Below, piece after piece: positions 38,082 through 63,716 of a DNA stretch of 64,000 nt. The stretch's first letter is position 1. Every line of letters begins with the position of its first letter. Below the pieces are notes generated by a model that searched no databases, was not told the origin of the DNA, and saw nothing but the letters and a program-made list of their open reading frames with translations. Location of the stretch: positions 62,001 to 126,000 of the forward strand of contig JAVJRG010000012.1 in the NCBI GenBank assembly GCA_040218535.1, in the 5' to 3' direction. Origin of the DNA: Lacipirellulaceae bacterium (GTDB lineage Bacteria; Planctomycetota; Planctomycetia; Pirellulales; Lacipirellulaceae). The position numbers and the translations under genes are program-made.

Positions 38082-38153
38082 GGAGGTAAGAAGCGTGCAA
38101 ACCTCTGAGGCAAAAACGTTTATGGAAACCAACAAAGAGAATACACCGCATTG

Positions 38154-43006: not shown

Positions 43007-43481
43007 GGCACACGTTCTCCTCTGGAATTTGCTCGGAGTTACCGGCCTTCGGAAAAAAGTTCTAACTGCCCGAGCGGTGGATAAAGAGCCGGATCGCGAT
43101 CCCATCACGGCTGACAGGTATTGCTACATGCACCTCCTGAATATTCGACCACCCTTCAATACCCTATCTGGGTATGCTACTCTGAGATTCTTCGTAGTTT
43201 CGGTTGCAACGACCTAACACACGGCGGATCGGGGAACTTGCGTGGATTCCTGATATTGCACATAGGGTTTCAACGGATACGACTCCATGACCGAGATACG
43301 ACTGCCGTAGCGGACCGAACTGGAACCGATGGAGCTGTGCAGCTACGGGCGGTTGACTCTGCTTGAACTTTTGATGCGGTACATGCCGTTCCCTTCACCA
43401 AAAAACAGAAAGCTCACCTGCTGCTTAAGCGTTTCCTCCAAAACTTCACTCTGGACAGTGCCGCAAACGGAGCCCTAGCGT
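43007..43481. other. Divergent intergenic region with CsoR-type site
   Basis: About 475 bases between the start of the secreted helical protein (-) and the sigma factor (+). It holds the CsoR-type site at 43159 listed separately. An 81-residue frame at 43121-43366 crosses this site and has no ribosome site; I do not accept it. Confidence 0.5.
43159..43175. promoter_or_regulatory. CsoR-type operator ATACCC-TATCT-GGGTAT
   Basis: A perfect 6-5-6 palindrome with the pattern ATACC-N7-GGTAT shared by three other sites in the window. It matches the form of known CsoR operators (TACC...GGTA cores). It is 153 bases upstream of the secreted helical protein gene (-) and about 300 bases before the sigma gene (+); the first is the more likely target. 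Confidence 0.7.
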
Positions 43482-44063
43482 TTGAATGAAGCGAGCCAAA
43501 ACAACGGAGACCCGTCGATTCGCGAATCGCCTACAAATGCTTCCACCCAGCAATTGGTTGATGCGTGTGTCGCGGGTGATCGCTGCGCGATGCAGCAGCT
43601 TTACGAGCAATGCGCTGACAACGTGTACGGATTGATGGTCCGTATGGTCGGGCGGCAGGACGCTGACGATCTTACGCAGCAGGTATTTCTTAGGATGTTC
43701 CGTAAACTGGAGCAATTCAACGGGCAATCCAAGCTCGAAACGTGGCTCTACCGTTTGGCAAGCAACGAAGCCTTGCAACATCTTCGTCGTAGCAAACGAC
43801 GATCCACGGCACCACTTGTCACCGATCCCGCAACAGATGATCCAGACCGGATCGGCAAAGCCGAGGAAGCCGAGCTGCTTGAAACGGCTATGTCGCAGCT
43901 CGACCCGGAACTTCGAGCAATACTGATTCTGAAAGAACAGCAGAATCTGTCTTACCGCGAGATCGCCGAGTCTATCGGCATACCCGAGGGCACCGTCGGT
44001 TCGCGGCTAAACCGGGCACGGAAACTACTTCGCCAAGAACTTGCGCAACTCGGTTGGGAGTGA
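43482..44063 (+). CDS. ECF-type RNA polymerase sigma factor
   Basis: A 193-residue sigma-70 family protein. Region 2 contains DADDLTQQVFLRMFRKLEQF and the -10-binding helix with SKLETWLYRLASNEALQHLR; region 4 contains LSYREIAESIGIPEGTVGSRLNRARK, the -35-binding helix-turn-helix. The start is a TTG with GGAG eight bases upstream. There is no anti-sigma gene beside it; the nearest is at 34772. It is convergent with the TolC gene, 14 bases between ends. It probably directs metal-response promoters, but the target sequence cannot be read from this window alone. Confidence 0.9.
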   Translation: MNEASQNNGDPSIRESPTNASTQQLVDACVAGDRCAMQQLYEQCADNVYGLMVRMVGRQDADDLTQQVFLRMFRKLEQFNGQSKLETWLYRLASNEALQHLRRSKRRSTAPLVTDPATDDPDRIGKAEEAELLETAMSQLDPELRAILILKEQQNLSYREIAESIGIPEGTVGSRLNRARKLLRQELAQLGWE

Positions 44064-44077
44064 GTTCGACCGTCAAC

Positions 44078-45643
44078 TCAACCTCCGTAGGGACACCCAA
44101 CGGTGCGTTCGATTTGAGCGATCGTCCCAGCAAGTGTTGCCTCAATGCGTGCCAACTGGGTCTCGAACATCAGCAGTTCGCGATAGGTCTCGATCAGCGC
44201 GAAGAAGTCGGTTCGCTTGCCGCGGTAATCGGCGAAGGAGAGTTTGAGCGTATCTTCGGTTCGCGGAATAATTCGGTCTTCATAGATACCTGCCTGCTCA
44301 ACCAAGGCGTCGGCCTGGGCCATCAGCCGTCGCAACTTGCCTTGTATGGCATCGCGTTCGGCTTGTAGCCGTTGCGCCGAACTACTGGTCCGGTTGGCTG
44401 CTTCGCGGATGCCAGCGTTGATCTTTTCACGCCATATAGGAAGGGTAAATCCAACCATGAAGCTGATGTTGTCGTGACCGTTCGCCACAGGGCTGATGGC
44501 ATTCGTGTCGTCATCAATGATTGCGTAATTCAGTCCGAGGTTGAAATCAGGATATTTTTGCAAGTAAGCGAGCCGCTGCTTCTGACGGTCGCGTTGGATC
44601 TCTGATGCGATAGCTCGAAGTTCTGGACTGCACTGCTCGGCGAGGGCAAGTAAGCTTTCCAACCGCTCGGGCACATTCCTTAACCCAATGTCTTGCTGAG
44701 CTTCGGGGATAAGGGTGACCGGCTGCTGCACTAACGCTGCCAAATCGGCCTGAGCCTGCTCTTTTTGCTTGCGCAACCCTACCAGTTGGTCGTCCAATCG
44801 GTCTGCTTCAAGTTGCGCTCGCAGTACGTCTTGCTGAGTGCCGCCACTCTTGTAGCGAGCTTCCGCCACTTGCGTCAGGTCGTCCACTAACTCGCGAGTT
44901 TCTTCGACAATCGTGATCGCCCGAGTTGCAAACCAGACTTCGTAGTAAGCCAGACGAACGGATTCGGTGATCTCGCGTTGGATTCGATTGAGTTCTGCTT
45001 GCGCTATTTGGACTTCGCGACTGGCGATCGCCGCTTTTGCACGCAGCTTCTCCGGCCACGGGACGCCTTGCCCAAGCTGGAACTGATGCCCTACGCGACC
45101 ACCGGCCGTCTGCAGAGCCTGGTCTTGAATCGGCCAGAAGGTGTTGTTGAAACTCGGATCGGGCAACGCTCGCGCTTGCGGGATTACATTCGCTGCAGCG
45201 GACACGCGGTTTTGGGCCGCTTGGATTTTTGGATGCCCACTTAGGGCCACTTGTATGAAATAATCCACCGGCTGCTGTTGCTCCGCCACCGGAGGAATTA
45301 AAGTTAGTTCCATCGGCTGCACAAGTTCTTCTACGGCTTCGGAAGCCGATTGATCTTCTCCCGACTGCTGGCCAGAACCACTGCTTTCTTCCACCTCATT
45401 ATTGAGATCATTGGGGGAGAGAGACGGCAGACTGATGTCTTCGGTTTGGCTGGCTAGCTGAATTTTGCTCTTCGGCGTAGCTGAATCCTCAGTGGGTGCC
45501 TTGGTCCTTTCCTCCTCTCTACCAGACGCAACGCTTTTAGGATTGCTGCTCGATAGCACATATTCCTGCGTCGTTGCACACCCACTGGCGACAATCAAAG
45601 CCAGCGTGGCTAGCAGAAATCGTGTTTTTCTGCGAAAATCCAT
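44078..45643 (-). CDS. TolC-family outer membrane efflux lipoprotein (CusC-like)
   Basis: About 521 residues from ATG 45643, chosen because AGGGA lies seven bases upstream and a lipobox follows (VASGC, Cys22); the frame is open to 45667. An acidic, Ser/Glu-rich linker of about 90 residues precedes two outer-membrane-factor repeats (VALSGHPKIQAAQNRVSAA; ASEIQRDRQKQRLAYLQKYP). It should be the outer channel for the CusBA system that starts at 46676, from which it diverges. The shared control region holds a CsoR-type site at 45763. Confidence 0.88.
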   Translation of the reverse strand: MDFRRKTRFLLATLALIVASGCATTQEYVLSSSNPKSVASGREEERTKAPTEDSATPKSKIQLASQTEDISLPSLSPNDLNNEVEESSGSGQQSGEDQSASEAVEELVQPMELTLIPPVAEQQQPVDYFIQVALSGHPKIQAAQNRVSAAANVIPQARALPDPSFNNTFWPIQDQALQTAGGRVGHQFQLGQGVPWPEKLRAKAAIASREVQIAQAELNRIQREITESVRLAYYEVWFATRAITIVEETRELVDDLTQVAEARYKSGGTQQDVLRAQLEADRLDDQLVGLRKQKEQAQADLAALVQQPVTLIPEAQQDIGLRNVPERLESLLALAEQCSPELRAIASEIQRDRQKQRLAYLQKYPDFNLGLNYAIIDDDTNAISPVANGHDNISFMVGFTLPIWREKINAGIREAANRTSSSAQRLQAERDAIQGKLRRLMAQADALVEQAGIYEDRIIPRTEDTLKLSFADYRGKRTDFFALIETYRELLMFETQLARIEATLAGTIAQIERTVGCPYGG

Positions 45644-45762
45644 TAGCATTTCCCTGTTACGCCGCATTCACAAAGCGGCTTCGCCAGCCAAATAGGTCTG
45701 TAAATTGCTCAATTAGCCAAATTGGACTTGTACCATTGCCCTTCATTCCCGATATAGTTGAT

Positions 45763-45779
45763 ATACCGTCAGAGGGTAT
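45763..45779. promoter_or_regulatory. CsoR-type operator ATACC-N7-GGTAT
   Basis: ATACC and GGTAT arms with GTCAGAG between, in the 150-base gap between the divergent TolC gene (-) and Cys-rich leader gene (+). TTGATA at 45758-45763 could be a -35 element for the plus strand, with a poor -10 at 45781. The site would overlap the spacer, so a bound repressor would block RNA polymerase. Confidence 0.6.
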
Positions 45780-45794
45780 CTATCGGAACGAACA

Positions 45795-46412
45795 ATGAGA
45801 AACTTCCCGACAATTTGCATGGCCCGCGTAAATCGAATCATCGTCAATCTTTTACTCATCGTTGCCATAACGATGCAGCCGACGCTGACGCTCGCGTTCC
45901 AACAAGGTTGTTGTTCTGTTGATTGCACGTACGAATTCACCTGTCAAGGTTGCGGTTGTTGCAAGGTGCAATTGCAGACGGAGAAGTGTCCTTGTTGTAG
46001 TGGCGGTGTTCCGGACGAGCATCAAAGCTGCTGCGGGCATGCCGGTCGCGACAAGTCGCAGCGGGCCAAAGAGCCTAGCGTTGACGACCCATTTGCGGAC
46101 ATGGTTCTCGAAGAAGGACCGGTGCCGGAGAACTCCGAACAACCGACCGATGAAGGCCAAGCAAATAGACAAGAGGTTGCTAATGCGACTCTATCTACCA
46201 CTTGCCAATGCCTGAGCAAACGCGACCCGCTTGATGCTCCTACGCCACGTTCCCCGATTACGGAACTACGAGACGTTCTCTCATTGAGCAGCGCTCAATG
46301 TGGCATCCTCTACTCGGCAGAAGAGCATCCGCCTGCGTCTACGCTTGACGCCGCATGTGCTCCAATTGCGCCTCACTTCTCGCAGATATCTTTCTGTGTC
46401 TGGCGGCTATAG
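45795..46412 (+). CDS. Cys-rich secreted small protein (leader type C)
   Basis: A 205-residue protein: hydrophobic signal (IIVNLLLIVAITMQPTLTLA), then a very Cys-rich part (QGCCSVDC, CQGCGCCK, KCPCCSGG, QSCCGHAG), an acidic linker, CQCLSKRDPLDAPTP, and the end ISFCVWRL. It should bind soft metal ions in the periplasm. It has the same layout as the proteins at 18124 and 26309 and precedes a CusBA gene pair. The start could be ATG 45795 or ATG 45819; the first lies only 16 bases past the CsoR-type site. A strong stem-loop follows the gene. Confidence 0.7.
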   Translation: MRNFPTICMARVNRIIVNLLLIVAITMQPTLTLAFQQGCCSVDCTYEFTCQGCGCCKVQLQTEKCPCCSGGVPDEHQSCCGHAGRDKSQRAKEPSVDDPFADMVLEEGPVPENSEQPTDEGQANRQEVANATLSTTCQCLSKRDPLDAPTPRSPITELRDVLSLSSAQCGILYSAEEHPPASTLDAACAPIAPHFSQISFCVWRL

Positions 46413-46426
46413 TCGCCCACTTCTAG

Positions 46427-46456
46427 GAGTACTGCGCACGTTGCGTGGCAGTACTC
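46427..46456 (+). terminator. Strong stem-loop between leader gene and CusB gene
   Basis: GAGTACTGC (46427-46435) pairs perfectly with GCAGTACTC (46448-46456); inside, CACG and CGTG extend the stem. It starts 15 bases after the leader stop codon. No T-run follows, so partial termination or mRNA processing is likely rather than a full stop. Otherwise the 263-base gap shows no gene. Confidence 0.5.
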
Positions 46457-46675
46457 GCCTTCTGTTGTGCAGGCAATCGGTCTGACTCAGCGCACTCCGC
46501 GAGCTTGCTGATCTGCTTTGCAACTCAGAACTACTGGCAACCAATGCAGCTTGATGCTGCGCGGTGACTTCTGGTCTACGGTTGCCGTGCTACTAAGCCC
46601 CTCCATGCACTGAAAGAATCCGTGCGAGCAGAACTCCTATTCGTGCATTGAAAACGCACGAAGTGAGAAAAGATC

Positions 46676-48892
46676 ATGATGCATCACGAAACGCCAAACC
46701 CGGCCGACGACCACGACGGCGCAGTCAACCCCTCTCGCGGACAGGTCGAAGACACAGAAACCACTTCGGAAACCAAAGCAGATATGTCGGATGACGTAAC
46801 TGATCGCTCAGCATCTGTCGCGAACGCTTCGGCCAGTGACGATGCCGCTGCAACCGACGCTGTCGCAGCGAGAGCAGAGGTCCCCTCACCAGCCAATTCT
46901 ACTACCGCAGCCGATGCCCAGCTTGGTGGTTGGTCTTGGCTTCTGCGTTTCGCCGTGAAATCGATCGGGGTCGTCGCGGTCGGAGCACTGTTGCTGTTCT
47001 TAATCGGAGTCGCTCAGCGAACCGAATGGGTGACCGCCGACGGCTTTTCCGCCACCGGCGGTGAAACCACTGCCAAAGCCGCCGCAGCTAGTGAAGACAA
47101 ACGTTATATCTGTCCCATGATGTGTACCCCGCCATCGACCGAACCGGGTCGTTGTCCGGTGTGTGCGATGGAACTTGTGGAGGCTACCAGTGGTGGTGGC
47201 GGCGACGGGATTTCGGTCACCATCGAATCGGCCGCGCGCCGACTCGTCGGCATCCAGACCGCAATGTCGAGGATGGGCGAAATGACGCGCACCATTCGCA
47301 CCATTGGCTCGATTGACTTTGATGAAAGCAGACTGTCTACGATCTCCGCTTACATCGACGGACGACTAGAAAAGCTGTACGCCGACTACGTCGGCGTCGA
47401 GGTAACCCAAGGAGAAGACCTCGCGCTGATCTACAGCCCTCAACTCTATTCCGCTCAGACGGAGTACATAACTAGCCTTGAAGGTAATGCGTCCAAACGG
47501 TTCCAAATCGGCGATAGCAACCTGGAGGAAATGTCTCGCCAGAATCTCAGTGAACTTGGCATGACCGAGCAGCAGATCGAGTCACTGCGCCAGAGCCGCA
47601 AGCCGCAATCCCGCATTCGTATTAAGTCGCCGCAAAGCGGAACGGTCATTGAGAAGACGGCGGTTGAAGGCGACTACGTCAAGACCGGACAGAAGCTCTA
47701 CCGCATCGCAGATCTGAGTTCCGTCTGGCTGATGCTCGATCTGTTTCCCGACGACGCGGCAACGGTCCGCTTCGGTCAACAGGTCGAGGCGGAGATCCAA
47801 TCCATGCCGGGTGAAGTCTTCTCGGGGAGAGTGGCGTTTATCGATCCCACCGTTAACTCGCAAACTCGCACCGTACGAGTTCGTGTTGAAGTGATGAACT
47901 TCGACGGTAAGTTGCGGCCCGGTGACTACGCCACCGCGCGGATCACGGTGCCTGCGATTCCAACCGACTTAGTCTACGACCCGGCGCTCTCCGGCAAATA
48001 TATCAGTCCCATGCATCCCCAAGTCATACGTGACGAGCCCGGAGACTGCCCAATTTGTGGCAGGGACTTAGTGCCGACTAGCCAGCTTGGCTACGCCACC
48101 CAGCCGCAGCCCGAACAACGAGTCGTGACTGTGCCCCGAGATTCCGTCTTACTCACGGGCGACAGCGGTGTGATCTATGTGGAAACCGAGCCGGGACGGT
48201 TCGAGATTCGTCGGGTCGCCGTCGGGCCGATGAACGATACCGAAGCGGTGATCATTGAAGGGCTGGCTGCTGGCGAGACCGTTGCCACCGGTGGTAACTT
48301 TCTGATCGACTCGCAAATGCAGTTGGCCGGCAATCCATCTTTGATGGACCCTACCAAAGCTCCGAGCTATTCGCCCGGTCCCCTGGAATTGCCTGAGAGC
48401 CAACCGGCCATGCTTGCCGCCGACGCGGGTCGCCACTTCGACAGAGCCTACGACGCCTATTTTGAAATCCAATGTGCGATGGCTGCGGACATGACTCCGC
48501 CGCCAGTCTCACTTAATACCCTGTTGGATTCGCTCGCGCATTTAGCGATGTCCGCCGAAGTTCCCGACGACGCTCAAACAGAGTTAGCCAAAGCCCGCCG
48601 AGCCGCCTTGCGAATGGATGGCTCACTGGAGACAGCCCGCGAGGCTTACCGAGCTGTCAGCCACGGGATGTTGCGAGCCGCCGTAGTCGCACGCGGCCCC
48701 AAGACGGCAAGAGCACTGACGCACTACTACTGTCCGATGGTCCCGGGCGGCGGTGGCGACTGGATGCAACCTGGCGGTGATCTTGCCAATCCGTATTGGG
48801 GCGATGAGATGCTTCGCTGCGGCGAAATCGTGCGAGACATGGCGATCGACGAGCCTGTTTCGGCTCCTTCTGTTGCGAAAATGCCGAACTAG
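46676..48892 (+). CDS. cusB: CusB-type RND adaptor with CPM metal-binding domains
   Basis: A 738-residue adaptor. The first 85 residues are acidic and Ala/Ser/Asp-rich, presumably cytoplasmic. A transmembrane segment follows (SIGVVAVGALLLFLIGVA), then a first metal-binding domain (YICPMMCTPPSTEPGRCPVC), the lipoyl/hairpin/barrel core, a second one ([20 protein letters not shown]) and the C-terminal block YYCPMVPGGGGDW ... NPYWGDEMLRCGE. The layout equals that of the adaptor at 35667, so the two systems are paralogous. The gene is ten bases before the RND pump gene. Copper or silver efflux is the probable job. Confidence 0.88.
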   Translation: MMHHETPNPADDHDGAVNPSRGQVEDTETTSETKADMSDDVTDRSASVANASASDDAAATDAVAARAEVPSPANSTTAADAQLGGWSWLLRFAVKSIGVVAVGALLLFLIGVAQRTEWVTADGFSATGGETTAKAAAASEDKRYICPMMCTPPSTEPGRCPVCAMELVEATSGGGGDGISVTIESAARRLVGIQTAMSRMGEMTRTIRTIGSIDFDESRLSTISAYIDGRLEKLYADYVGVEVTQGEDLALIYSPQLYSAQTEYITSLEGNASKRFQIGDSNLEEMSRQNLSELGMTEQQIESLRQSRKPQSRIRIKSPQSGTVIEKTAVEGDYVKTGQKLYRIADLSSVWLMLDLFPDDAATVRFGQQVEAEIQSMPGEVFSGRVAFIDPTVNSQTRTVRVRVEVMNFDGKLRPGDYATARITVPAIPTDLVYDPALSGKYISPMHPQVIRDEPGDCPICGRDLVPTSQLGYATQPQPEQRVVTVPRDSVLLTGDSGVIYVETEPGRFEIRRVAVGPMNDTEAVIIEGLAAGETVATGGNFLIDSQMQLAGNPSLMDPTKAPSYSPGPLELPESQPAMLAADAGRHFDRAYDAYFEIQCAMAADMTPPPVSLNTLLDSLAHLAMSAEVPDDAQTELAKARRAALRMDGSLETAREAYRAVSHGMLRAAVVARGPKTARALTHYYCPMVPGGGGDWMQPGGDLANPYWGDEMLRCGEIVRDMAIDEPVSAPSVAKMPN

Positions 48893-48902
48893 GAGACACT
48901 CC

Positions 48903-51900
48903 ATGCTCAACATCATCATTCGCTTTTGTGTGAAAGAACCGTGGCTCGTCCTGCTATTGGCGATCGGGCTAAGCGTGGGCGGCTGGTTCGCCTACCAGTC
49001 CGTGCCCATCGACGCCATTCCCAACGTCGGTGAGAACCAGGTCATCGTGCTGACGCCATGGCCCGGACGTTCGCCGAAAGACATCGAAGATCAGGTCACG
49101 TATCCGCTGAGCGTCTCTCTGCTCGCCGTGCCAGGCGCCGAATCGGTGCGCGGCAAGAGCATGTTCGGTTACAGCTTTGTGCAAGTGACTTTCAAGGATG
49201 AGATTGACTTCTATTGGGCGCGAAGTCGCGTCTCCGAGCAACTTGGCTCGGCAGCGTCTCAGTTGCCCGATGGAGTCGTTCCGCAACTAGGTCCCGACGC
49301 TACCGGACTTGGGCAAATCTACTACTACACGTTGATCCCACCGCAGCTCCGCGAGGGGCAGTCTGCTGAAGCAGGGATGAGCTTGGCGGAGCTACGAAGT
49401 TTGCAGGACTTTGTCATCAAGTTCGAGCTTCAGGCAGTGGAAGGGGTGAGTGAAGTCGCTTCGATCGGCGGCTATGTTCGCCAGTATCAAATCGAAGTCG
49501 ATCCTGACAAGCTTCGCTTCCACAATCTGCCGCTAGATGCCTTAGCGATGGCCATCAAGGGGTCCAACTTGGACGTGGGCGCCAAGACCGTTGAAACAAC
49601 GGGGATGGAATACATTGTGCGTGGGAAAGGATTTCTTGGCACCGATGGCGACCAGCGGAAGACTATCCGAGACATCGAAGAGACGGTGATTACGCAGCGA
49701 AACGGCGTGCCTGTTCGCGTAGGTGATGTGGCGAATGTGCAACTTGGCCCAGACTTCCGCCGGGGAGCACTCGACTACAATGGGGCCGAGGCAGTCGGTG
49801 GCGTCGTTGTGATGCGCTACGGCGAGAATCCACGGGATGTCATTGACCGTGTGAAGGAGAAGATTGCTCAAATCGAACCCGCATTAAAGGGAGTCACGAT
49901 TCACGGCGTGTATGACCGAACGGGCCTCATCGACGAAACGATGGCCACGCTGACCCACGCGCTGCGTGACGAAATCCTGATTACCGCCGTCATCATTCTG
50001 CTGTTCTTGCTGCACATTCGCAGCAGCTTCATTGTGGCGATCTGTCTGCCGGCCGCCGTGCTGATGTCATTCATCGCCATGCACGTTGTAGGCGTTGAAT
50101 CGAATATCATGTCGCTTGCCGGGATCGCTATCGCCATTGGCACGATGGTCGATATGGGCATCATCGTCTCAGAGAATATCTATCAGCATCTTGCGGATTG
50201 GGAAAAAGATCAGGCAGCCAACGGCGGGAAGCAGATTAAGCGTTCCAAGAATCGTGCAGATGTTGTCTATGAGGCGGCAATCGAAGTTGCTCCGGCAGTC
50301 GTTACGGCGGTGGCAACGACCATCGTTAGTTTTCTGCCCGTGTTTTTTCTCACGGGGCGTGACTACCGGCTCTTCTCGCCGCTGGCTTACACGAAGACGT
50401 TCGCCATCGCGGCGGCCATGATCACTGCCGTCACAATCGTCCCAGCGATGTGTCGTCTCATGCTCCGCAGCGCCGAGTACCAGAAACGAACGGCGCTGGC
50501 GGCCGGCCTGGGACTGGCGGCTCTCCTGGGGCTAGCGGCTCACTACATGTGGGCGGAGCCACTGGCCCACCACTTCGGCATCCCAACTTGGTCGATAACC
50601 GCACTGGCGGTAGCCGTGGGCTTCATTGCCGCATGGCAGTTGATGCAGGAACGAATTCGCCCGATTGAAGAGATTCCTTCTAGTCGTTTTGTTCGCTGGC
50701 TCTATGCCGCTCGTTTGCGGCAAGCGCTCAACCACAAGGTGCTTGCCCTTTCATTTCCTGCGTTATTACTGGTTGTCGGTGTCGGCGCCTGGATTGGGAT
50801 GCCAACGGTCATGCGTCCTGTTGAGAAGATCGCCCGTGTCTTTGGAGCAGACCTCAATCAGTTTCCCGGCTATGTGGACGCCAAGCATGTGTTTACCGGG
50901 CTACAGAGCGACGACTGGATCGCTCTGGATGAGGGCAGTTGGTTTTATATGCCGACGCTTTATCCGGCCGCCAGTTTTTCGCAGGCAATGCAGGTCTTGC
51001 AGACGCAGGATGTGCTGATTGGGCAGATTCCAGAAGTGAAAGATGTGCTCGGTAAAATCGGCCGCGTTGAATCGGCGCTCGACCCCGCGCCGGCTGCGAT
51101 GGTTGAAACCTATGTGATGCTTAAGCCTGAGAGCCAGTGGCGAGAGGGTGTTACCCCTCGCGATGTGTGGGATGAGATTAACAAAGTCGCCACGCTTCCG
51201 GGCGTGACTCCCGCGTCCGCCCTGCAACCCATTGAAGGCCGGGTGGTGATGCTGCAATCGGGCATCAAAGCGCCGATGGCTATCCGCGTCTACGGCGACA
51301 AGCTCGATACGCTGGCCGATGCCGCGATGGATGTGGCTGCGACACTGAAGACCTCACCGCTGGTCAACGCCGGAACGGTCAATCCCGACATTGTGCTCGG
51401 CAAACCGTATATCGAATTCACCGTCAACCGCGAAGCCGCCTCCCGCTACGGCCTGAGTGCGGCGATGGTCAATCAGATAATCGAAACCGCTCTCGGTGGA
51501 ATGAATCTCATCAAGACGGTTGAAGGCCGCGAGCGTTATCCCGTGCGGCTCCGCTACAACCGCGACCTTCGTGAACGGATCGATCAACTGAGCCGCTTAC
51601 CGGTCGTGACGCACAGCGGCGCGGTGGTGCCGCTGGAGGAACTCGCGAAGCTGGAGACCACCTGGGGGCCAGGCGCTATCAACAGCGAAAACGGCCGACT
51701 GGTGGCTCATGTTTCCTTCATGACCAGCGGCGCTAAAGGCGACTTGGAGTCGGTCACTGCGATCGAAGAGCAGCTTCGTGAGGCCCAGTTGCTACCACCA
51801 TCCGATCCGAATCGACTGGCGCTTCCAGCAGGGTATTCGTTGGAGGCAGTTGGCAGTTTCCGCAATCAAATTGAGGCCAACACGAGGCTCATGTGGATCA

Positions 51901-52466: not shown

Positions 52467-52571
52467 GAATATTTTTGGCTATTGCTGAAGGAATCGTTCC
52501 TTCAAGCATCCAAGTGTCACAGAGACCCTTGGATCACTTTCACCCCCAAGCACATTACTGGGAGAACAAGG

Positions 52572-53984: not shown

Positions 53985-53991
53985 GAAAACA

Positions 53992-54073: not shown

Positions 54074-54133
54074 GCTCCTGCCCTTTTTAGTTTCTTAAAA
54101 ACTGTCAGCAATCAATCACTTTCAACGACAAGG

Positions 54134-54418: not shown

Positions 54419-54436
54419 ACTAGACAGTAGGTCAAA

Positions 54437-55108: not shown

Positions 55109-56561
55109 GCGAATGTGACGCACCAACCCTCGCCGCAAGCAAGGTTGTGTCATCGAATGGGGGCCGAGATCCACGAAACCGGGCAAGTGCCTCGACGAAT
55201 TCGCTAACCAGTTGCCGAGGAGAGGTAGCCGACGACTCCGCCATCACTTGGCCAACTCGCTCAGTGCCGAACTGGTTCTCATTCGGGTCGAACGCTTCAG
55301 TCACGCCGTCAGAAACGAGCACCACCTTTGTGCCGCTAGTTATACTCACATTCTGCTCCGTGTAGGCTGTCTGTTCGTCCACGCCCAACAGCAGATTGCT
55401 GACCGAAAGACGTCTAACTGACTGGCCCGGCTCATGAATAAACGGCGGCTCGTGCCCGGCGTTGGCGCAGCTCAGTGTCATTTCGCCTTGATTCGCAACG
55501 ACAATCACCATCGTCGCGAAGTGGCCCGGCACAATAATCTCGGCGTATCGGCGATTGATGCGATTGAGTATCTCTGCTGGACTACGGGTCACTTCTAGGG
55601 CTTCCAGAACTAAGGCTTTGATGACGGTAGCAGCCATCGCAGCCGGAACGCCGTGGCCCGAAACGTCAGCCAGACACAAGAGGCATTCACCATTGCCCAG
55701 CGGAATAACGTCGTAGTAGTCGCCGCCGACGTCATCGGCCGGCTCAAACAACTCGGCGGTGTCGACGCCTTCAATCTTTTGATTGGTCGGACGCAAGTGC
55801 TGTTGGATATCCCGAGCCTTCTTCATGTGAAGCCGTCGCTCTCGATCAGCAGCCGCTAGCTTTTTGGTCATCGCGTTGAGTCGTTCTGACAGGTAGGTCA
55901 GTTCTTCGCAACTACGTTCTTCCGCTTTGGCTTCAAGGTCACCATCACCAATGCGGCTGAGAGTGGCGACAAGGCGTCGCAGTGGTTTGGTGATAACTCC
56001 TCGCAGCACAAAGTGAACCACCAATCCGGCCAACGCGCTACCGAACAGCACTACGATCACTTGCCGAAGCAGCTCTTGCCGAGCGCCTCTCAACGCCGAG
56101 CTTTCTGACTCAGACACGTAGATCGCGCCGTGCGGACCAGCGAACTTCGCGGCCACGAGTGAGTACGAGTCTGTGGGCGGATGATTGCTGTCTCCAGCCG
56201 CAGCACGCATGGCACGAAACATATCGTGAGAAGCTCGACCGTGTGACTTGGCCTGCATTGAACTGCCTTGCCACTTGACCGCGATGTGATGCCCCGGCGA
56301 TTCGGACGAGTTCATGCGGGCACAGACATCGTCAATCAACTGCTGTATTGCCTCATTGCCGCGATTCGCGATTGCATCAATCGACTCGTAAACTGTCTTC
56401 GCTTCCTCTGTTAGCGCAATTCGCTTTTCCTGCTTCGCCTCGCGAATCCGCACCCCATGACCAACAACAAGAAACAAGACCACGACAAGTAGTAGCAAGC
56501 CATTGACGGCCAGCATCAGTTGCCGCCGCAGCGGAAGGCGTTTCCAGAATTCGATACTCAC
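55095..56561 (-). CDS. PP2C-type (SpoIIE) phosphatase with HAMP domain
   Basis: 488 residues from GTG 56561, chosen because AGGAGA lies nine bases upstream; the frame is open to 56591. Order: transmembrane helix (LMLAVNGLLLLVVVLFLVV), external sensor region, second helix (VIVVLFGSALAGLVVHFVL), HAMP (residues about 185-240), short coiled coil, and the SpoIIE/PP2C catalytic domain with DVGGDYYDV, LADVSGHG and the Asp in LVSDGVTEAF. It would dephosphorylate an anti-sigma antagonist or similar partner; no such gene is in the window. It is the last gene of the CsoR cluster (85 bases after the channel gene). Confidence 0.88.
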   Translation of the reverse strand: MSIEFWKRLPLRRQLMLAVNGLLLLVVVLFLVVGHGVRIREAKQEKRIALTEEAKTVYESIDAIANRGNEAIQQLIDDVCARMNSSESPGHHIAVKWQGSSMQAKSHGRASHDMFRAMRAAAGDSNHPPTDSYSLVAAKFAGPHGAIYVSESESSALRGARQELLRQVIVVLFGSALAGLVVHFVLRGVITKPLRRLVATLSRIGDGDLEAKAEERSCEELTYLSERLNAMTKKLAAADRERRLHMKKARDIQQHLRPTNQKIEGVDTAELFEPADDVGGDYYDVIPLGNGECLLCLADVSGHGVPAAMAATVIKALVLEALEVTRSPAEILNRINRRYAEIIVPGHFATMVIVVANQGEMTLSCANAGHEPPFIHEPGQSVRRLSVSNLLLGVDEQTAYTEQNVSITSGTKVVLVSDGVTEAFDPNENQFGTERVGQVMAESSATSPRQLVSEFVEALARFRGSRPPFDDTTLLAARVGASHSPTPD

Positions 56562-56645
56562 AAGACCGACTCTCCTGCTCGCACGGCGCATGGCTCCACA
56601 CCGTTTGATGCACGAGTTTCCGGTTTCTTCATCCAGTGCAGGGGA

Positions 56646-57713
56646 TTAGTGGGAATCTTGGGGGCGGTGGCTGCCGGTCATCGTGCATCGCTCTAATGAC
56701 CTCAGGTCATTGGACCACTGTCGGCAATTGACAGTGTAGGCAGAAGCAAATGCGTCGGGATCAATTGCTAAAAACGCCGACTCGGTTGAGCGAAGGTGGT
56801 CAGAAAGCCGAGCAGCAAGCGATGAGTCAACATCGTCTCGCGATACTTTGCAAATGACAAAATGCTTTTGGGCATCTTCCAACATTTGTAGACTCGCATG
56901 CCAGAGTCGCTCGGTCGGCTCCGCGTTCACCGTCGAAACACTGTCTTGCGACTCGTTTATTGCCCTTAACAGCGACGCCGTTTCCAAACAGAATCTCAGC
57001 ATCCGACTCATTGCATATCGCGGTTCGCGGAAACGAAAATAGTGCAGAGCAGGATAGAAATGGTGCGATTCAAGGAGGTCGGCCAGTTTGGATGCCAAGT
57101 CATACAAATCCTGTTGAAGCAGTGATCGGTCATCGCAGGCGAGGTGCGGTAGCAGATAACCTAACACATCTCCGGTACGTCCCGTACGATAGTCAATCTC
57201 AGATGCAAATTGGTTGCGTCTGCCCAGTGCGCTGTAGACCGATATGACATATGCCAAAACGAGCGTAAAGAAACTAAACCCGATAGCGGATGCGGTAATT
57301 GTGACCATTCGCGTGAATGTCGTTTGCGGCACTAGATCGCCCATCCCTAGCGTCGTCACGGAGAATCCGGCGTAGTAAACCGCCGTGGCTAAATCTGTGC
57401 CTATTGCCTCGCCACTTGCGTACACGATACCCCTACCGAGTTCCGGCCTGACTACGAGGCTAATGCCGAGCAATAGAAGAGACGCCCAGACGATCAGCTG
57501 ACAGAGGATCAATACCGGACCGCTGAAAAGCAACAGCCTACTGTTCGCCCCCAGCAGCTTCTGAGAAACGTAGTGGTAGACTCGATAAGTCGCCGCCGTT
57601 ACCGGACCGCTTACCGCGCGAGGATACAGGACCGCTATGCACGTCTCTAGAACGCCCAGCGTAGCAATGAGCCAACCGAAGATTACCAGCACAAATTCCA
57701 GCACGCCATTCAA
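56646..57713 (-). CDS. Two-pore-helix type ion channel (K+ channel-like)
   Basis: A 355-residue membrane protein. Two or more N-terminal helices (VLVIFGWLIATLGVLETCIAV; PVLILCQLIVWASLLLLGISL) are followed by a pore loop with FSVTTLGMGDLVP near residue 123 and a further helix (ITASAIGFSFFTLVLAYVI), then a cytoplasmic domain of about 190 residues. The filter TLGMGD replaces the usual T-x-GYGD of potassium channels by Met, so selectivity may differ. Its ATG overlaps the TGA of the CsoR gene, so the two are translated together. A channel coupled to a copper regulator is unusual. Confidence 0.82.
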   Translation of the reverse strand: MNGVLEFVLVIFGWLIATLGVLETCIAVLYPRAVSGPVTAATYRVYHYVSQKLLGANSRLLLFSGPVLILCQLIVWASLLLLGISLVVRPELGRGIVYASGEAIGTDLATAVYYAGFSVTTLGMGDLVPQTTFTRMVTITASAIGFSFFTLVLAYVISVYSALGRRNQFASEIDYRTGRTGDVLGYLLPHLACDDRSLLQQDLYDLASKLADLLESHHFYPALHYFRFREPRYAMSRMLRFCLETASLLRAINESQDSVSTVNAEPTERLWHASLQMLEDAQKHFVICKVSRDDVDSSLAARLSDHLRSTESAFLAIDPDAFASAYTVNCRQWSNDLRSLERCTMTGSHRPQDSH

Positions 57714-58036
57714 TCGATGACACCTGCGTATTTGCGAAACAGCTTGATCAGCTCTTCCAGCTTCTGCTCTCGGTCGGCGACATCCTTATTTTGCATTGCT
57801 TCAGTCACACAAGTCTTTAGGTGATTTTCCAAAACAATTTGTCCGACTTTGGCCAGAGCACCAGTCGCCGCGGAAATCTGCATTAACACGTCAACGCAGT
57901 ATTCCTCATCGTCGATCATCCGCCCCACCGCTTCAACTTGACCGTTGATACGCTTGATGCGGTTCAGTACCTTCTTTTTTTCATCGGACTTCAGCATGTT
58001 CCCTACCGGTGGCACCGCAATCATCGTTTTGGCCAT
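57710..58036 (-). CDS. csoR: CsoR-family copper-sensing repressor
   Basis: A 108-residue all-helical protein of the CsoR/RcnR/FrmR family: KKKVLNRIKRINGQVEAVGRM, then Cys47 in EEYCVDVL, and His72 and Cys76 in NHLKTC. The C-x24-H-x3-C set is the Cu(I) site of copper CsoRs, rather than the pattern of nickel/cobalt RcnR. With no copper bound the protein represses its operators; binding Cu(I) releases it. The start could be ATG 58036 or a later ATG (57997) with AGGGA close by. It overlaps the channel gene and lies 70 bases after the multicopper oxidase. It likely acts on the four ATACC-N7-GGTAT sites listed. Confidence 0.9.
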   Translation of the reverse strand: MAKTMIAVPPVGNMLKSDEKKKVLNRIKRINGQVEAVGRMIDDEEYCVDVLMQISAATGALAKVGQIVLENHLKTCVTEAMQNKDVADREQKLEELIKLFRKYAGVID

Positions 58037-58105
58037 TAAATATCAAAGCCTGGCAGCATATAGCGACCGTCAGATTCTAGCGTATTTAGGCGGTTGGGGA
58101 CAGGA

Positions 58106-59650
58106 TCAGCCATCCATCGACATCATCTCGTGCTTCGGTGCCGGTTCGTAATGATCGGGATCGCCGAAGCGTCGGACGATCTCTGAAAAAACGGCTCCTT
58201 TTTCGATTGGCTGGTCGGTCTCCATGACCAACTCGTAGAGGTCATCGGGTAAGACTCGCATGACCGTCATCAGACCCTTCACAGCCATCAAGTAATTTGC
58301 ACGCATCCCCTGTACTTCGCGACGACCCCAGTAGATTTTCATATCTTCTTCACTCATAGACATCCCCATCATCTTCTGAGGGTAACCGGGCGTGTTGAAA
58401 CCCGCTCTTTGCGCAGCTTCTACTGACGGTCGGTTGTCAAGGTTCGCCAAGTAGCGATCTACGGAGGCCTGTCGTATTCGCGGTCCCACCTGCTTGGTCA
58501 TGTGGTTCATCATGTGGTGAACCATGTGGCAGTGGAAAATCCAGTCACCGGGATTGTTTGCCACGAACTCAAAATCGGAAGCCTGTGCAACACCCACGAG
58601 TTCGTTGTTGCGAGGAATCCATGCACTCTTCGGTACCCTCGCTCCCTCATGTCCAGTCACCCAAAACGTGTGACCATGCATGTGAATGGGATGGTGCTGC
58701 ATTGGTGCAAAATTCAGTAACCTCACCCGGACACGTTCACCGTGCTTGCAAACCAAGGGCGTTGTGTAAGGACCGCTTCGTCCGTTTATCGTGTGCCAGT
58801 TCCAATCCATTGACCAACTATCAGAAACCGTCTGGTTGGGACCGACGAAAAAGTTTTGAAAGATCAAACCAAAGTCTCGGTCAACCGGCGGGTCGAATAC
58901 TTTCTTAGGATGAACGATGAACCATCCAACCTGTCCAAACGCCTCCTGCATGGCTACATGCGAATGATAGAAGAACGTGCCTTCTTCATGAACGTCGAAC
59001 TCGTAAACAAATGTTCTGCCTGGTTTTATCGGCTCCTGATTGAGCGTCGCGGCACCGTCGTATTGCACGGGCAACTCGAACCCGTGCCAATGAACGAAAG
59101 TGTCCTCCGGTAGTTCATTCGTCACGACTATGCGGACACGGTCTCCCTGATTGACCTCTATCGTCGGCCCCGGCATACTGCCATTGTAGCCGTAGACATT
59201 CATTTTGACTCCGGGATGGAATTCTCTTTCGACCGCCATCGGAACTAGATGAAACTCCTTTGCACCGTTCACCATCTCCCACGGCAACTTCTCTAAATCT
59301 GGAGCCACGAATGGAGCCGGACCATCTTCCGTTTTGCGAAATCCCGGAACCAATTTCCCCAAATAGTAATCTGAATCAGGGTCGTTTCCCCGCCCCGGCT
59401 TGAACCGCGAGTAACCGTCATATTCTTCACGAACATCTGTTCCAGCTGGTATGCTTGGCTTCGCATTCCGGCTGCCAATCGGTTTTTGGGAATGCCCATG
59501 TGCATGCGGCATTTTCATCGCTTCCTGAGCCGTAGCGGCCGAAGCGAGCATCGCCGCTGTCACACCCGTCGCGGCAGCTATCGCCCCCTTTGTGATGAAC
59601 TCCCGCCGACCAGCCGACTGTAACAGTTTGGTTTCTTTTTCGTATCTCAT
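58106..59650 (-). CDS. Multicopper oxidase (Tat-exported)
   Basis: A 514-residue enzyme with a twin-arginine signal (GRREFITKG, then AAATGVTAAMLASAATA). All four copper motifs are visible: FVHWHGFE, FFYHSHVAM, HPIHMHGHTFW and WIFHCHMVHHMM, which supply the type 1 and trinuclear sites. It should oxidise Cu(I) to Cu(II) in the periplasm, like CueO/CopA-type oxidases; a role in nitrite or phenol oxidation cannot be excluded. A Met/His-rich stretch follows the signal (EAMKMPHAHGHSQ) and the C-terminus has HEMMSMDG. GAGGA lies seven bases before the ATG. It follows the TolC gene by 14 bases. Confidence 0.92.
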   Translation of the reverse strand: MRYEKETKLLQSAGRREFITKGAIAAATGVTAAMLASAATAQEAMKMPHAHGHSQKPIGSRNAKPSIPAGTDVREEYDGYSRFKPGRGNDPDSDYYLGKLVPGFRKTEDGPAPFVAPDLEKLPWEMVNGAKEFHLVPMAVEREFHPGVKMNVYGYNGSMPGPTIEVNQGDRVRIVVTNELPEDTFVHWHGFELPVQYDGAATLNQEPIKPGRTFVYEFDVHEEGTFFYHSHVAMQEAFGQVGWFIVHPKKVFDPPVDRDFGLIFQNFFVGPNQTVSDSWSMDWNWHTINGRSGPYTTPLVCKHGERVRVRLLNFAPMQHHPIHMHGHTFWVTGHEGARVPKSAWIPRNNELVGVAQASDFEFVANNPGDWIFHCHMVHHMMNHMTKQVGPRIRQASVDRYLANLDNRPSVEAAQRAGFNTPGYPQKMMGMSMSEEDMKIYWGRREVQGMRANYLMAVKGLMTVMRVLPDDLYELVMETDQPIEKGAVFSEIVRRFGDPDHYEPAPKHEMMSMDG

Positions 59651-59664
59651 GATGTCGTCCTCGA

Positions 59665-61089
59665 TTAGCGTGGCTTCGGTACGGAGTCGATATGGCCAGC
59701 GGGCATTGGCCCAGACGCGGCATTAAGCCCACCGTCAAGCAGGTAACCCTGAATCAAGACTTCGCTTTGACGTAACTGCTCCTCATAGCTGATTTGGGCG
59801 AGCCGAACTTCAGCGTATTCTGCTTGAGCTTGCAATACCTCCCGCCACTCAATTCGATTTTGCTTGTAGCTGCTGAGTAACTCGCGATACGCTGCCCTCA
59901 TTTCGGGAACGATGGAGTCGCGATATTCCGAAGCATGCTCGAACGACATTGCGTACTGTTCATAAACCATTGCCAAGCGCTGTCGAAGCGTTAGTTCAGT
60001 CCGTCGCACTTCTCGTCGCTGACGGTTGAAGTCGGCACGGGCTTGGCTAATTGTGCCCTGATTTCTATCGAATAGCGGAATCTCAATGCTGATATCAGCG
60101 ACTGCCACAGTTTCCCTGGCATCGAAGTTATATCCAGTGCCTGCGGAGAAAACGATGTCGGGAATCCACTCTACTTCTTCTCGTTCGATCGTAATTCGAT
60201 CTGCGGATAGCTTGGCTCTTGCTGCAAGCACTTCGGGACTTTCCGCTACAATTCGCGCTAAGGTGCCATCAAAAGTTGCGAGCGGCTCAGTTGTCGCTAA
60301 CGTTCCGACCACCGCTCCCACAGGAAGATCAAGTCCGACAAGCGAAGTTAATTCACGAAACCGCATCCGATACTCGTGTTCGGCTTTTTGCACAGCAAGT
60401 CGAGTCCGCTGGAGCATGACATTTGACTTGCGAACATCGTATCTGTTGGCTTGTCCGACGTTGTAAAGCTCCCTTGCGGTAACCGCTGCATCTTCGGCCG
60501 TTTTGAGAAGTTCTCGTTGCATCTCCAAACGTTGTTGAGCGGCCAGTGCTCGGTAAAAGTGAATCCGAACATCGTTGCAAACGCGATACTGCTGAGCGAC
60601 CGCCAAGTGTTCCGTAACATGTGCCCGACGAAGGTACTTTTCTCGACTGAGGCTTAGTTTGCCAGCAGTAACAATTCGCTGCGAAATGATCCCCCCCTGA
60701 AATTCACCCGGCGAATCTGTATCTCCTTCAACATCCACGAAGATTTGCTCACCGGCGTAGGCTAACGTTGGATTCGGGTACAAGCCAGCCTGCTGTGCTT
60801 TGGCAAGCTCTGCTGATATCTGCAAACGCGCTTGCCGTAGTGTTGGATTATTCTGCGTTGCTAGCGACAAGACTGTTTTCAAATCGAGAACTTCGCCCAG
60901 GCCCAATGGAGTGTCACCGACCGATGCCGGCTGAGTGGGGCGAGCAGGTGGATTGATGAACTGGCTTCCGGCAGATGGGGCCGGTGGTTCTGCGATACGG
61001 GCCGGTGACTGTAGTAGCTCCTGCGCCCCAGCTCCGTCAATAAATAGAGCCATCAGCATAACGACTGCTGAGATACCAAATTTACTCAT
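59665..61089 (-). CDS. TolC-family outer membrane efflux protein
   Basis: 474 residues from ATG 61089, chosen because a signal peptide follows (KFGISAVVMLMALFIDGAGA) and because the frame further up to 61206 runs through the operator and promoter. Two outer-membrane-factor repeats are visible (SLATQNNPTLRQARLQISAE; VEWIPDIVFSAGTGYN). It is probably cleaved, since no lipobox is seen. It precedes the multicopper oxidase in the CsoR-controlled unit. No pump lies directly beside it, so it may serve one of the CusBA systems. Confidence 0.88.
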   Translation of the reverse strand: MSKFGISAVVMLMALFIDGAGAQELLQSPARIAEPPAPSAGSQFINPPARPTQPASVGDTPLGLGEVLDLKTVLSLATQNNPTLRQARLQISAELAKAQQAGLYPNPTLAYAGEQIFVDVEGDTDSPGEFQGGIISQRIVTAGKLSLSREKYLRRAHVTEHLAVAQQYRVCNDVRIHFYRALAAQQRLEMQRELLKTAEDAAVTARELYNVGQANRYDVRKSNVMLQRTRLAVQKAEHEYRMRFRELTSLVGLDLPVGAVVGTLATTEPLATFDGTLARIVAESPEVLAARAKLSADRITIEREEVEWIPDIVFSAGTGYNFDARETVAVADISIEIPLFDRNQGTISQARADFNRQRREVRRTELTLRQRLAMVYEQYAMSFEHASEYRDSIVPEMRAAYRELLSSYKQNRIEWREVLQAQAEYAEVRLAQISYEEQLRQSEVLIQGYLLDGGLNAASGPMPAGHIDSVPKPR

Positions 61090-61145
61090 CTCTGTATGCG
61101 ACCCCCGGTTTCTTCCATGAAATCCCTTACGACGTTCATCGGCGG

Positions 61146-61162
61146 ATACCCATACTGGGTAT
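61146..61162 (-). promoter_or_regulatory. CsoR-type operator ATACCC-ATACT-GGGTAT with promoter
   Basis: A perfect 6-5-6 palindrome 57 bases upstream of the TolC start. On the minus strand TTGCGA (rc of 61181-61186) and TATACC (rc of 61158-61163) form a -35/-10 pair with 17-base spacing, and the palindrome overlaps the -10. A bound CsoR would block transcription of TolC, oxidase, csoR itself and the genes after it. Confidence 0.75.
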
Positions 61163-61242
61163 AAATGATTTCCTTTCGTTTCGCAAACTTGCCCACTAAT
61201 GAGCATTTAAGCGATCTAGGCAGGCGATGCCCTTGAGATATC

Positions 61243-63639
61243 CTAAGCCAGCTTGGCAGCTCGCAGTCGCAGCGCATTGGCAATCACGGACACGCTACTG
61301 AAACTCATTGCCGCTGCGGCGATCATCGGGCTAAGCAACACGCCGAACACCGGATACAATAGGCCCGCTGCAACCGGAATGCCCAGCGCGTTGTAAATGA
61401 ATGCGAAAAATAGATTCTGCCGAATATTGCTCATTGTCTTGCGACTGAGATTGTTTGCCGCCGCAACCCCCCGCAAATCGCCACCAACGAGCGTCACTCC
61501 CGCCGACTCGATCGCAACGCCGGTGCCGGTTCCCATTGCGATCCCCACATTCGATTCCGCCAATGCCGGAGCGTCATTGATCCCATCACCCGCCATTGCA
61601 ACGACCTTACCTTCCTCCTTGAGTTGTTTGACGAAGTCATGTTTGTCCTGCGGTGAAACACCTGCGTGAAATTCATCGATTCCTAGCTTCTCTGCCACAG
61701 CCTTAGCAGTCGGCTGAGCGTCCCCAGTGAGCATCACAACTCGCAGCCCAAGTTCATGGAGCGTTCTAAGCGCCGCTGGGGTGCTATCCTTGATCGGATC
61801 GGTGATGGCCATGCTGGCGGCAAGCTCGCCGTCGATGGCAATGAATATCACCGTGGCTCCTTCCGATTGATGCTGCGTTGCCCGCTTGCGTCCTCCTTCG
61901 ACGCCAGAGATTGACAGCTGGTCGAGCAAGTCGGCTTTTCCGATCAGCACATCGCGGCCATCAACACTTGCACGAACTCCGCCGCCGGTAATGCTGTCGA
62001 ACTCTGAGGCATCAGGTACAGACAATTTGTCGGCCTTAGCTCGCCGAACCACTGCCTGAGCCAAGGGATGTTCGCTCTGGGCTTCCACGGCAGCAGCCAG
62101 CTTCAACACTTCCGTTTCACTCCAGTCTCCAGAGGTTTCAATCGCTGTCACCTCTGGACGGCCTTGAGTCAGTGTGCCGGTTTTATCGACGACAACTGTG
62201 TCGACATTCTCCATCACTTCCAAAACTTCCGCGTCCTTAATGAGAACGCCTTCCTTCGCACCGCGACCCACGCCAACCATCACCGACATCGGCGTGGCCA
62301 GTCCTAACGCGCACGGGCAAGCAATGATCAACACGGCCACCGCCGCTACAAATGCGTGAGCCAAACGAGGCTCCGGACCGAACACTGCCCAGCCGACAAA
62401 CGCAAGAATCGAACAGACGATGACAGCCGGAACGAAATAACGTGACACAACATCAACCAGTTTTTGAATTGGGGCGCGACTTCGCTGGGCTTCGGCAACC
62501 ATCTGTACGATTCGATGAAGGACTGTATCACCGCCCACGCCAACCGCTTCCATGACCAACGCTCCGGTCTGATTTAGCGTGCCGCCTGTAATCTCATCGC
62601 CTTCGCTTTTACTGACTGGAATCGGTTCGCCTGTCAGCATCGACTCATCAACACTGCTGCTACCGCTTATGACGGTCCCATCGACGGGAACTTTCTCCCC
62701 CGGTCGCACTCGCAGGCGATCACCTTGATGCACGTCGCCAAGTGCGACTTCTTCCTCGCCGTCCTCGGTGATGCGATGCGCGGTCTCCGGCGCAAGCTGC
62801 ATGAGTTCGCGAATGGCACCGCTGGTCTGTTGTCGAGCACGTAGCTCCAATACCTGGCCTAGCAAGACCAGTGTGATAATTACTGCCGCCGCCTCAAAAT
62901 AAAGCGGCGGCTTTCCATTTTCAAAAAACGCCTCGGGGATCATCGCGGGAAACAGCACAACAAACAGGCTGAATAGAAAGGCGGCAAGCGTTCCCACGGC
63001 GATCAGCGAGAACATATTTAGATTCAACGTGCGAAACGATTTCACTCCACGAACTAAGAGTGGCCAGCCACACCAGAACACGACCGGCGCGGCGAAAGCG
63101 AGTTGCAGCCAGCCGAACAGCCGATCCGACATCTGTTCAGCAAGATTCCAGCCGACCATCGGTCCCATCGCCAGCACCAAGAGCGGCGCCGACAATATTA
63201 CCCCCACCCAGAACCGCCGCAGTATATCTCGATACGACCCTTCGTCACCGTGTTCCGCCATATCGACGTACTTCGGCTCAAGGTCCATTCCGCAGATCGG
63301 GCAATCGCCCGGTCCAACTTGCTCAACCTCTGGGTGCATCGGGCAGGTGTAAATCGCATCGGGGTTTGCTGCTGGCGAAGCAGCGGCCGCCTCTTTCCCG
63401 GCGCGTGAATCCCCACCGTGGGAACAGCAACTATGATCGTCGCCTGACTTCCCACCCTTTTCAGCTTCTAGTTGAGCGGCTTTCGCCAGCACCGCAGCCG
63501 GATCCTCCTCAAATTTCCGCTGGCAGGACTCGCTGCAAAAGAAGTAGTCGCTGCCTTGGTAGTTCGACGACCGCGCTGATTCAGAATCAACCGTCATACC
63601 GCAGGCGGGATCGATTGCTTGAGTGTCCAGTTTGCTCAT
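61243..63639 (-). CDS. copA: Copper-exporting P1B-1 ATPase with YHS and CPMHP domains
   Basis: A 798-residue ATPase for Cu(I) export from the cytoplasm. N-terminus: YHS domain ([12 protein letters not shown] ... [16 protein letters not shown]) and a heavy-metal-binding domain ([20 protein letters not shown]) instead of HMA domains. Core: [10 protein letters not shown] in the sixth helix (about residue 441), DKTGTLT (about 483), [30 protein letters not shown], and the last two helices with YN and MSFSSVSV, the Cu(I)-type P1B-1 signature. AAGGGA precedes the ATG. It is divergent from the Csp gene, with one CsoR-type site between. Confidence 0.94.
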
Positions 63640-63699
63640 TTTATTCCCTTATGACCTGTCGCATGGTCCTGCATCAGCTCCCGTACTCATTTTGCGCCG

Positions 63700-63716
63700 A
63701 TACCCCTATACGGTAT
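63700..63716. promoter_or_regulatory. CsoR-type operator ATACC-N7-GGTAT between copA and csp
   Basis: ATACC (63700-63704) and GGTAT (63712-63716) with CCTATAC between. It is 61 bases before the copA start and 71 bases before the Csp start, so one site could control both. TATACT at 63714-63719 is a good plus-strand -10 and overlaps the right arm; a -35 (TTGCGC) lies 16-17 bases upstream. Confidence 0.7.

Follow-up and report, generated by a model that had tools for sequence, protein, structure and literature searches.

A candidate two-tier copper circuit of CsoR and an ECF sigma factor in a planctomycete island

The window analyzed here is a stretch of 64,000 nucleotides from a Lacipirellulaceae bacterium (C12:62001-126000, contig JAVJRG010000012.1, in an assembly of 5,355,217 bases and 13 contigs). 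It carries an island of efflux genes with one gene for a CsoR repressor, four CsoR-type operators, and a gene for an extracytoplasmic function (ECF) sigma factor. These elements quite probably form a two-tier copper circuit, in which CsoR would repress efflux genes together with the ECF sigma factor, and the sigma factor would drive a second tier of genes. The basis for the circuit is a set of sequence motifs that are rare in the genome and whose placement is conserved and mutually exclusive.

CsoR and its predicted operators

The window's genome encodes a single PF02583 protein, located inside the island (1.4e-29; 102.7 bits against a cut-off of 22.8). Across this protein and eight relatives (nine aligned sequences), C47, H72, and C76, the Cu(I) ligand set, are invariant. 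The same holds for R26-x2-R29, the basic RLxR-type motif named in DNA contact for CsoR (PMC3902906, in excerpt). The closest solved structures are CsoR proteins (4m1p, 4adz, and 2hh7). Curated NCBIfam cut-offs for CsoR-type proteins were not reached, the best match being the RicR model NF052430 (71 bits against 175), with the FrmR and RcnR models also below theirs. An earlier note on this DNA, made from the sequence alone, had described a copper-type CsoR with a Cys-His-Cys set, and these data agree. Cu(I) binding would be expected to lower the affinity of this CsoR for DNA. The repressor and its candidate operators are located as follows.

57710-58036, minus strand: CsoR repressor (PF02583, C47-H72-C76, solved CsoR relatives)
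43159-43175: CsoR operator 1, in the gap that separates the genes for the helical protein and the ECF sigma factor, most likely serving the latter
45763-45779: CsoR operator 2, between tolC1 and the Cys-rich gene-cusBA unit; same place in genomes G001, G179, G194, G670, and G718
61146-61162: CsoR operator 3, ahead of tolC2-mco-csoR-channel
63700-63716: CsoR operator 4, between copA and csp

The exact motif ATACC-N7-GGTAT occurs in the window at 43159, 45763, 61146, and 63700 (four sites; mean of 100 shuffles, 0.00). These four are also the only exact sites in the whole assembly (reversed-pattern control, 0). The earlier note had placed the sites correctly, including the perfect 6-5-6 palindromes at 43159 and 61146. 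It had further raised the case that such sites might be equally common elsewhere in the replicon, and all of them lie here. Its term "scattered" is loose, since the sites cover 20.6 kb of one island. With one mismatch allowed, the genome yields 37 matches against 23 in the control; the island gains none of the extras, and those outside it look like chance. Among the 30 genome-wide matches to the 15-bp core TACC-N7-GGTA, the palindrome TACCGCGGAGCGGTA (or its complement) is repeated on contigs C5, C9, C10, and C12, and was set aside.

Each of the four sites has TAC-X9-GTA with G/C tracts and A/T flanks, and TAC-X9-GTA defines type 2 CsoR operators (PMC3902906, in excerpt). Published CsoR boxes include TATACCC-N5-GGGTATA in Bradyrhizobium and ATACCCC-N3-GGGGTAT in Corynebacterium (PMC5057107, in excerpt), so that the likeness to known operators claimed earlier is borne out. 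By analogy with Bradyrhizobium, where the CsoR box overlaps -10 elements (PMC5057107, in excerpt), promoters probably overlap the operators here or lie immediately beside them.

A PF02583 match was found in 20 of 196 genomes, the window's own included, and 19 of these are above the cut-off. The 20 genomes contain 46 exact sites, 26 of them within 15 kb of the csoR match against 0.26 expected. Within the window's family, 10 genomes with a PF02583 match have 26 sites (control, 5), and the 33 others have 37 (control, 29). Some matches are not of the copper type: those of G015 and G160 lack the Cys set, that of G028 is spurious, and a ligand position is altered in those of G049, G063, G076, and G176. 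From a search of named genomes, 80 of 332 csoR relatives were retained. The first 35 loci (34 titled planctomycete) have the exact site in 30 cases, with 42 sites in total (control, 0); they include five from genomes already sampled (L109, L132, L137, L138, and L141), four from chromosome CP036432, and one titled Sumerlaeota (L142). The further 45 loci, mostly from other phyla, have 27 sites (control, 0). At L075 (in G034), L119, and L137, csoR has no TACC-N7-GGTA nearby, and some planctomycete CsoR proteins may therefore use another operator.

Operator placement was counted per gene for genes with upstream DNA inside the locus, others being omitted. The operator lies upstream of copA in 19/19 cases and of csp in 16/16, and tolC2 is preceded by the core form in 9/9 loci (four exact). 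It was also found ahead of the Cys-rich gene (3/4), tolC1 (1/3), and csoR itself (5/35, two exact). None was found ahead of mco (0/14), cusB (0/1), cusA (0/15), yhs (0/19), the channel gene (0/8), SpoIIE (0/15), or GNAT (0/8). Reversed controls gave 0 apart from one core match. This placement implies that CsoR autoregulation, where present, would mostly operate through csoR lying downstream in an operon. The autoregulation proposed in the earlier note, through the tolC2-mco-csoR unit, is thus probable, given the conservation of the site in relatives.

The ECF sigma factor, its predicted promoter, and the anti-sigma candidate

Operator 1 lies between two divergent genes.

42458-43006, minus strand: secreted four-helix protein (ATG at 43006)
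43482-44063, plus strand: ECF sigma factor, with Sigma70 regions 2 and 4

The sigma factor matches PF04542 and PF08281 above cut-off. Its relatives were sampled as 36 loci (33 examined out of 59 matches and three from a separate search), and TACCC-N5-GGGTA, a 15-bp form of the operator, lies upstream of the ECF gene in 20 (reversed control, 0/36). Four of these operators have the full exact motif, and 16 have the first outer base changed. Sorted by detected neighbor, the operator is present in 16/16 loci with tolC1, 0/4 with the helical protein, and 4/16 others. No operator was found in five weaker ECF loci outside the 36 (L103-L106 and L108). The helical protein was sampled as 30 loci from 35 matches, 28 with an upstream region; one of the 30, the window's own, has the operator. 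Because 20/36 ECF loci and 1/30 helical-protein loci carry the site, operator 1 most likely serves the ECF gene. The earlier assignment of sites to the TolC/leader-CusBA, TolC-oxidase-csoR-channel, and copA/csp units stands, but that of 43159 to the helical protein does not; the flanking genes were as described, except that the ECF gene at 43482 had gone unnamed.

Control sites at the 36 ECF genes are mutually exclusive: 20 have the operator and no ECF-type promoter, 12 the promoter and no operator, four neither, and none both. An ECF-type element thus precedes 12/16 operator-less and 0/20 operator-bearing ECF genes. All 20 operator-bearing loci are in genomes with PF02583, and 12 of the 16 operator-less loci are in genomes without it (Fisher 1.5e-6, uncorrected for relatedness). 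On a quick tree, one side contains 21 loci, 20 of them with the operator, and the other 12 autoregulated loci and three with neither site; the operator label requires two changes. At L119, outside the 36, csoR is present, yet the ECF gene is autoregulated. By eye, TAnAAT-like (-10-like) hexamers stand 3-4 bases beyond the operator, ECF-ward, in many of the 20 operator-bearing loci and are poor in the window. The one ECF locus of the operator clade without the operator, in G691 (L207:1250-1520), a genome without a PF02583 match, retains by eye only the right half-site, beside a CTCCCAG-type repeat array.

A dyad, GAAG-N17-CATC, lies upstream of 17/28 helical-protein genes, and three shuffles reach at most 4. 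A first scan of the window with an N16 spacer, and a position weight matrix on the N16 form, gave no convincing ECF promoter. Relatives showed a form one base shorter, and window sites were then found with an N14 spacer. The resulting pattern, TGAAGR-N14-GCATCnAA, has six matches in the genome (control, 0), and five of them lie in the island, which points to a second tier that the earlier note had missed.

34557-34584, minus strand: ECF-type promoter ahead of the YHS lipoprotein gene (34503)
34654-34681, plus strand: ECF-type promoter ahead of the anti-sigma/cusB2-cusA2 operon (34772)
43370-43397, minus strand: ECF-type promoter directed across operator 1 at the helical protein; aligned to the same column in G670
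52486-52513, plus strand: ECF-type promoter ahead of the YHS-repeat gene
56604-56631, minus strand: ECF-type promoter ahead of the SpoIIE gene

No plausible gene follows the sixth match (C5:65413) in the stretch fetched, and this match was taken as chance; allowing one extra spacer base adds a seventh (C12:945307). At csoR loci, the promoter lies upstream of yhs in 13/19 cases (reversed control, 0) and of SpoIIE in only 2/15. In G670 it precedes the anti-sigma, YHS, and SpoIIE genes, and in G718, G583, and G589 it precedes yhs. Among 32 hand-chosen genomes, the 18 with this ECF (at E 1e-42) have 115 matches (control, 8), against nine (control, 3) in the 14 without it, all from the window's family (Mann-Whitney 1.2e-6).

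Between 43159 and 43397, the minus-strand ECF-type promoter faces a presumed CsoR-controlled plus-strand promoter of the ECF gene across a leader of about 200 bases, an arrangement also present in G670 and one copy in G718. Transcriptional interference between these opposed promoters is possible.

The second cusBA operon is headed by an anti-sigma candidate.

34772-35644, plus strand: anti-sigma candidate (zf-HC2) with a transmembrane helix and an outer Cys motif

Its N-terminal domain matches zf-HC2 (PF13490, 44.3 bits against a cut-off of 22.2), with H29, C33, and C36 invariant, and a long predicted helix at 92-119 is taken as transmembrane. The alignment covers 15 sequences and omits L100 and L213 (cut off) from the 16 found. 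In the outer domain, which carries MPCCTC-x4-C, M198, P199, and C203 are invariant, and C201 and C208 nearly so; this motif suggests metal sensing by the outer domain. In 13/13 operator-less loci tested (of 16), an anti-sigma gene lies 3-55 bases downstream of the ECF gene. It is detached from the ECF gene in the window and in G194, G670, and G589, the operator-bearing regions where it was located.

Proposed circuit and rival explanations

In the first tier of the proposed circuit, apo-CsoR on the four type 2 operators would repress copA/csp, tolC1 with the Cys-rich gene-cusBA unit, the ECF sigma factor gene, and tolC2-mco-csoR-channel, and therefore itself. Cu(I) at Cys47-His72-Cys76 would release it. 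In the second tier, the sigma factor would drive the TGAAGR-N14-GCATCnAA promoters of the anti-sigma/second-CusBA operon, the YHS lipoprotein, the YHS-repeat protein, and the SpoIIE phosphatase, and probably that of the helical protein too. In a sister clade, the sigma gene has a promoter of its own type, which would give autoregulation, with the anti-sigma gene adjoining. In the window's clade, that promoter is absent, and a CsoR operator takes its place. CsoR binding, its release by copper, the specificity of the sigma factor, and the action of the anti-sigma factor are all steps that we infer.

A more tentative extension is a gate across two compartments. CsoR would read cytosolic Cu(I) and decide whether the sigma factor is made, and the RseB-like, Cys-bearing anti-sigma factor would read periplasmic copper and decide whether it is active, so that the second tier would need both. 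On this view, the island spread horizontally, and an ancestral autoregulatory loop with its sigma/anti-sigma operon gave way in it to control by a repressor. Negative feedback may come on top in the window, G670, and one G718 copy, where ECF-driven transcription would oppose the leader of the sigma gene.

Operator 1 could instead serve the secreted helical protein directly, leaving the ECF gene a bystander. Its position nearer to the helical-protein ATG (43006) than to the ECF start (43482) favors this, as does the ability of operators to act in both directions. We consider it unlikely because the site accompanies 20/36 ECF genes but only the window's own locus among those of the helical protein, whose relatives instead have the ECF-type dyad, as the window does at 43397. 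Furthermore, in G194 the operator lies 109 bases upstream of the ECF match start, and the nearest supported minus-strand gene, that for the anti-sigma factor, starts about 850 bases from it and has its own ECF promoter. A further rival accepts that CsoR regulates four units including the ECF gene, but holds that TGAAGR-N14-GCATCnAA belongs to another sigma factor, so that there is no cascade. At first look, these genomes have tens of ECF-like candidates. Yet the element stands ahead of this very ECF gene in 12 operator-less loci, and its genome-wide number tracks this ECF across the hand-chosen genomes, which makes the rival quite unlikely. Binding of the palindromes by a regulator other than CsoR, to which the motif-less csoR loci of G034, L119, and L137 could point, seems very unlikely: the motif is that of experimentally studied CsoR operators, and its occurrences gather around csoR both in planctomycetes and in other phyla, against a control of 0.

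Several observations weigh against the two-tier circuit. Genome-wide, the 15-bp core by itself shows no enrichment (30 against 40 in the control), which leaves the signal with the full 17-bp motif. Sigma-70 consensus scans gave no promoter at any of the four operators, and operator 1 lies 323 bases ahead of the ECF start, implying a long leader. Five of the 35 csoR loci have no site, three on short contigs (L110, L115, and L125) and two not short (L119 and L137), and the csoR island of G034 also lacks the motif. G176 has sites near csoR though its CsoR is without the third ligand Cys, and the L100 anti-sigma candidate has no Cys motif. On the tree, the link between ECF gene and operator amounts to about one gain and one loss; the Fisher value therefore overstates it, and an independent-pairs test was without power. 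Finally, the N14 form of the promoter was defined after the window sites had been seen. As it was shaped on its five island sites, the fairer tests lie outside the window.

Island genes and related systems

The other genes of the island are listed below.

34087-34503, minus strand: YHS-type lipoprotein (open reading frame; metal-binding motif judged by eye)
35628-38081 and 38151-42146 (together 35628-42146), plus strand: second cusB and cusA, without a CsoR operator
44078-45667, minus strand: tolC1, outer-membrane efflux protein (PF02321)
45795-46412, plus strand: secreted Cys-rich protein, upstream of cusB (no Pfam or NCBIfam match)
46676-48892, plus strand: cusB, membrane-fusion protein
48903-52466, plus strand: cusA, resistance-nodulation-division (RND) efflux pump (TIGR00914; start picked by eye in open reading frame 48753-52466)
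52572-53984, plus strand: YHS/TRASH-repeat protein (start picked by eye in open reading frame 52482-53984)
55095-56591, minus strand: HAMP-SpoIIE phosphatase
56646-57713, minus strand: ion-channel protein (PF07885), overlapping csoR by 4 bases
58106-59650, minus strand: multicopper oxidase (mco)
59665-61089, minus strand: tolC2 (PF02321; start picked by eye in open reading frame 59665-61206)
61243-63639, minus strand: copA, copper P-type ATPase
63787-64000, plus strand: csp, four-helix copper-storage protein (111 aa, continuing beyond the window end; TIGR04401 below cut-off)

The Cys-rich protein lies directly behind operator 2, and diverged relatives (24-54%) occupy the same position in several genomes. 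A relative of the ion-channel protein adjoins csoR in several planctomycetes. For the helical protein, the prediction is a signal-like segment followed by a four-helix bundle; Cys141 and Cys155 are conserved, and a fold search gave generic helical bundles only, none at E <= 0.001. Compared with G670, which belongs to another family (L268-L269 against window 34772-63639), island genes show 46-95% identity (CusA2, 95%; CusA, 92%; CsoR, 90%). These identities suggest horizontal transfer of the island.

The predicted regulon shares a PF02583 Cys-His-Cys repressor, a TAC-X9-GTA operator, and control of a copA-type ATPase with the CsoR regulons of Streptomyces lividans (three operators), Bradyrhizobium (the csoR-cueA divergon), and Mycobacterium (CsoR and RicR) (PMC3902906, PMC5057107, and PMC10141476, in excerpt). 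Unlike in those regulons, the operators here stand at genes for RND efflux, TolC proteins, a multicopper oxidase, a copper-storage protein, and an ECF sigma factor. For the Planctomycetota of a marine set, the excerpted part of PMC10141476 gives only two-component and ECF copper homologues and no CsoR.

An ECF gene placed under another signaling system, in a cascade, is also a feature of HrpL, SigE, and SigQ (PMC8999054, section 3.1). The regulators listed there, however, are enhancer-binding proteins, two-component systems, and TetR-type repressors, with no copper repressor among them, and the window also retains an anti-sigma candidate. CorE of Myxococcus xanthus, a copper-dependent ECF factor, likewise links this type of sigma factor to copper (PMC8999054, in excerpt). 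CorE senses the metal through its own C-terminal Cys-rich domain (same excerpt), whereas the window ECF protein has no such extension, with Cys only at positions 29, 35, and 44 of 193. The anti-sigma candidate shares a zf-HC2 N-terminal domain and weak fold matches with known proteins: its AlphaFold2 model (mean pLDDT 83.8) weakly matches RseB in the outer part (E 0.03) and RsiW and RslA in the inner part (E 0.55 and 0.92). The fold search was weak overall, the best match being 1vr8 (3.8e-3). Unlike RsiW, RslA, and RseB, its outer domain has the largely conserved MPCCTC-x4-C. Among the matches listed from the open-access literature, subscription papers being outside the scope, none described an ECF sigma gene under CsoR control, and none a CsoR operator at an ECF sigma gene whose relatives have an own-sigma promoter.

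CsoR regulons as such are already known. If the circuit is true, a metal regulon would be defined for planctomycetes, complete with an anti-sigma candidate and with predictions of its operators and ECF promoter. The two clades would then offer a natural before-and-after comparison of sigma factor rewiring, from autoregulation to repressor control, in a circuit open to testing in cultured relatives.

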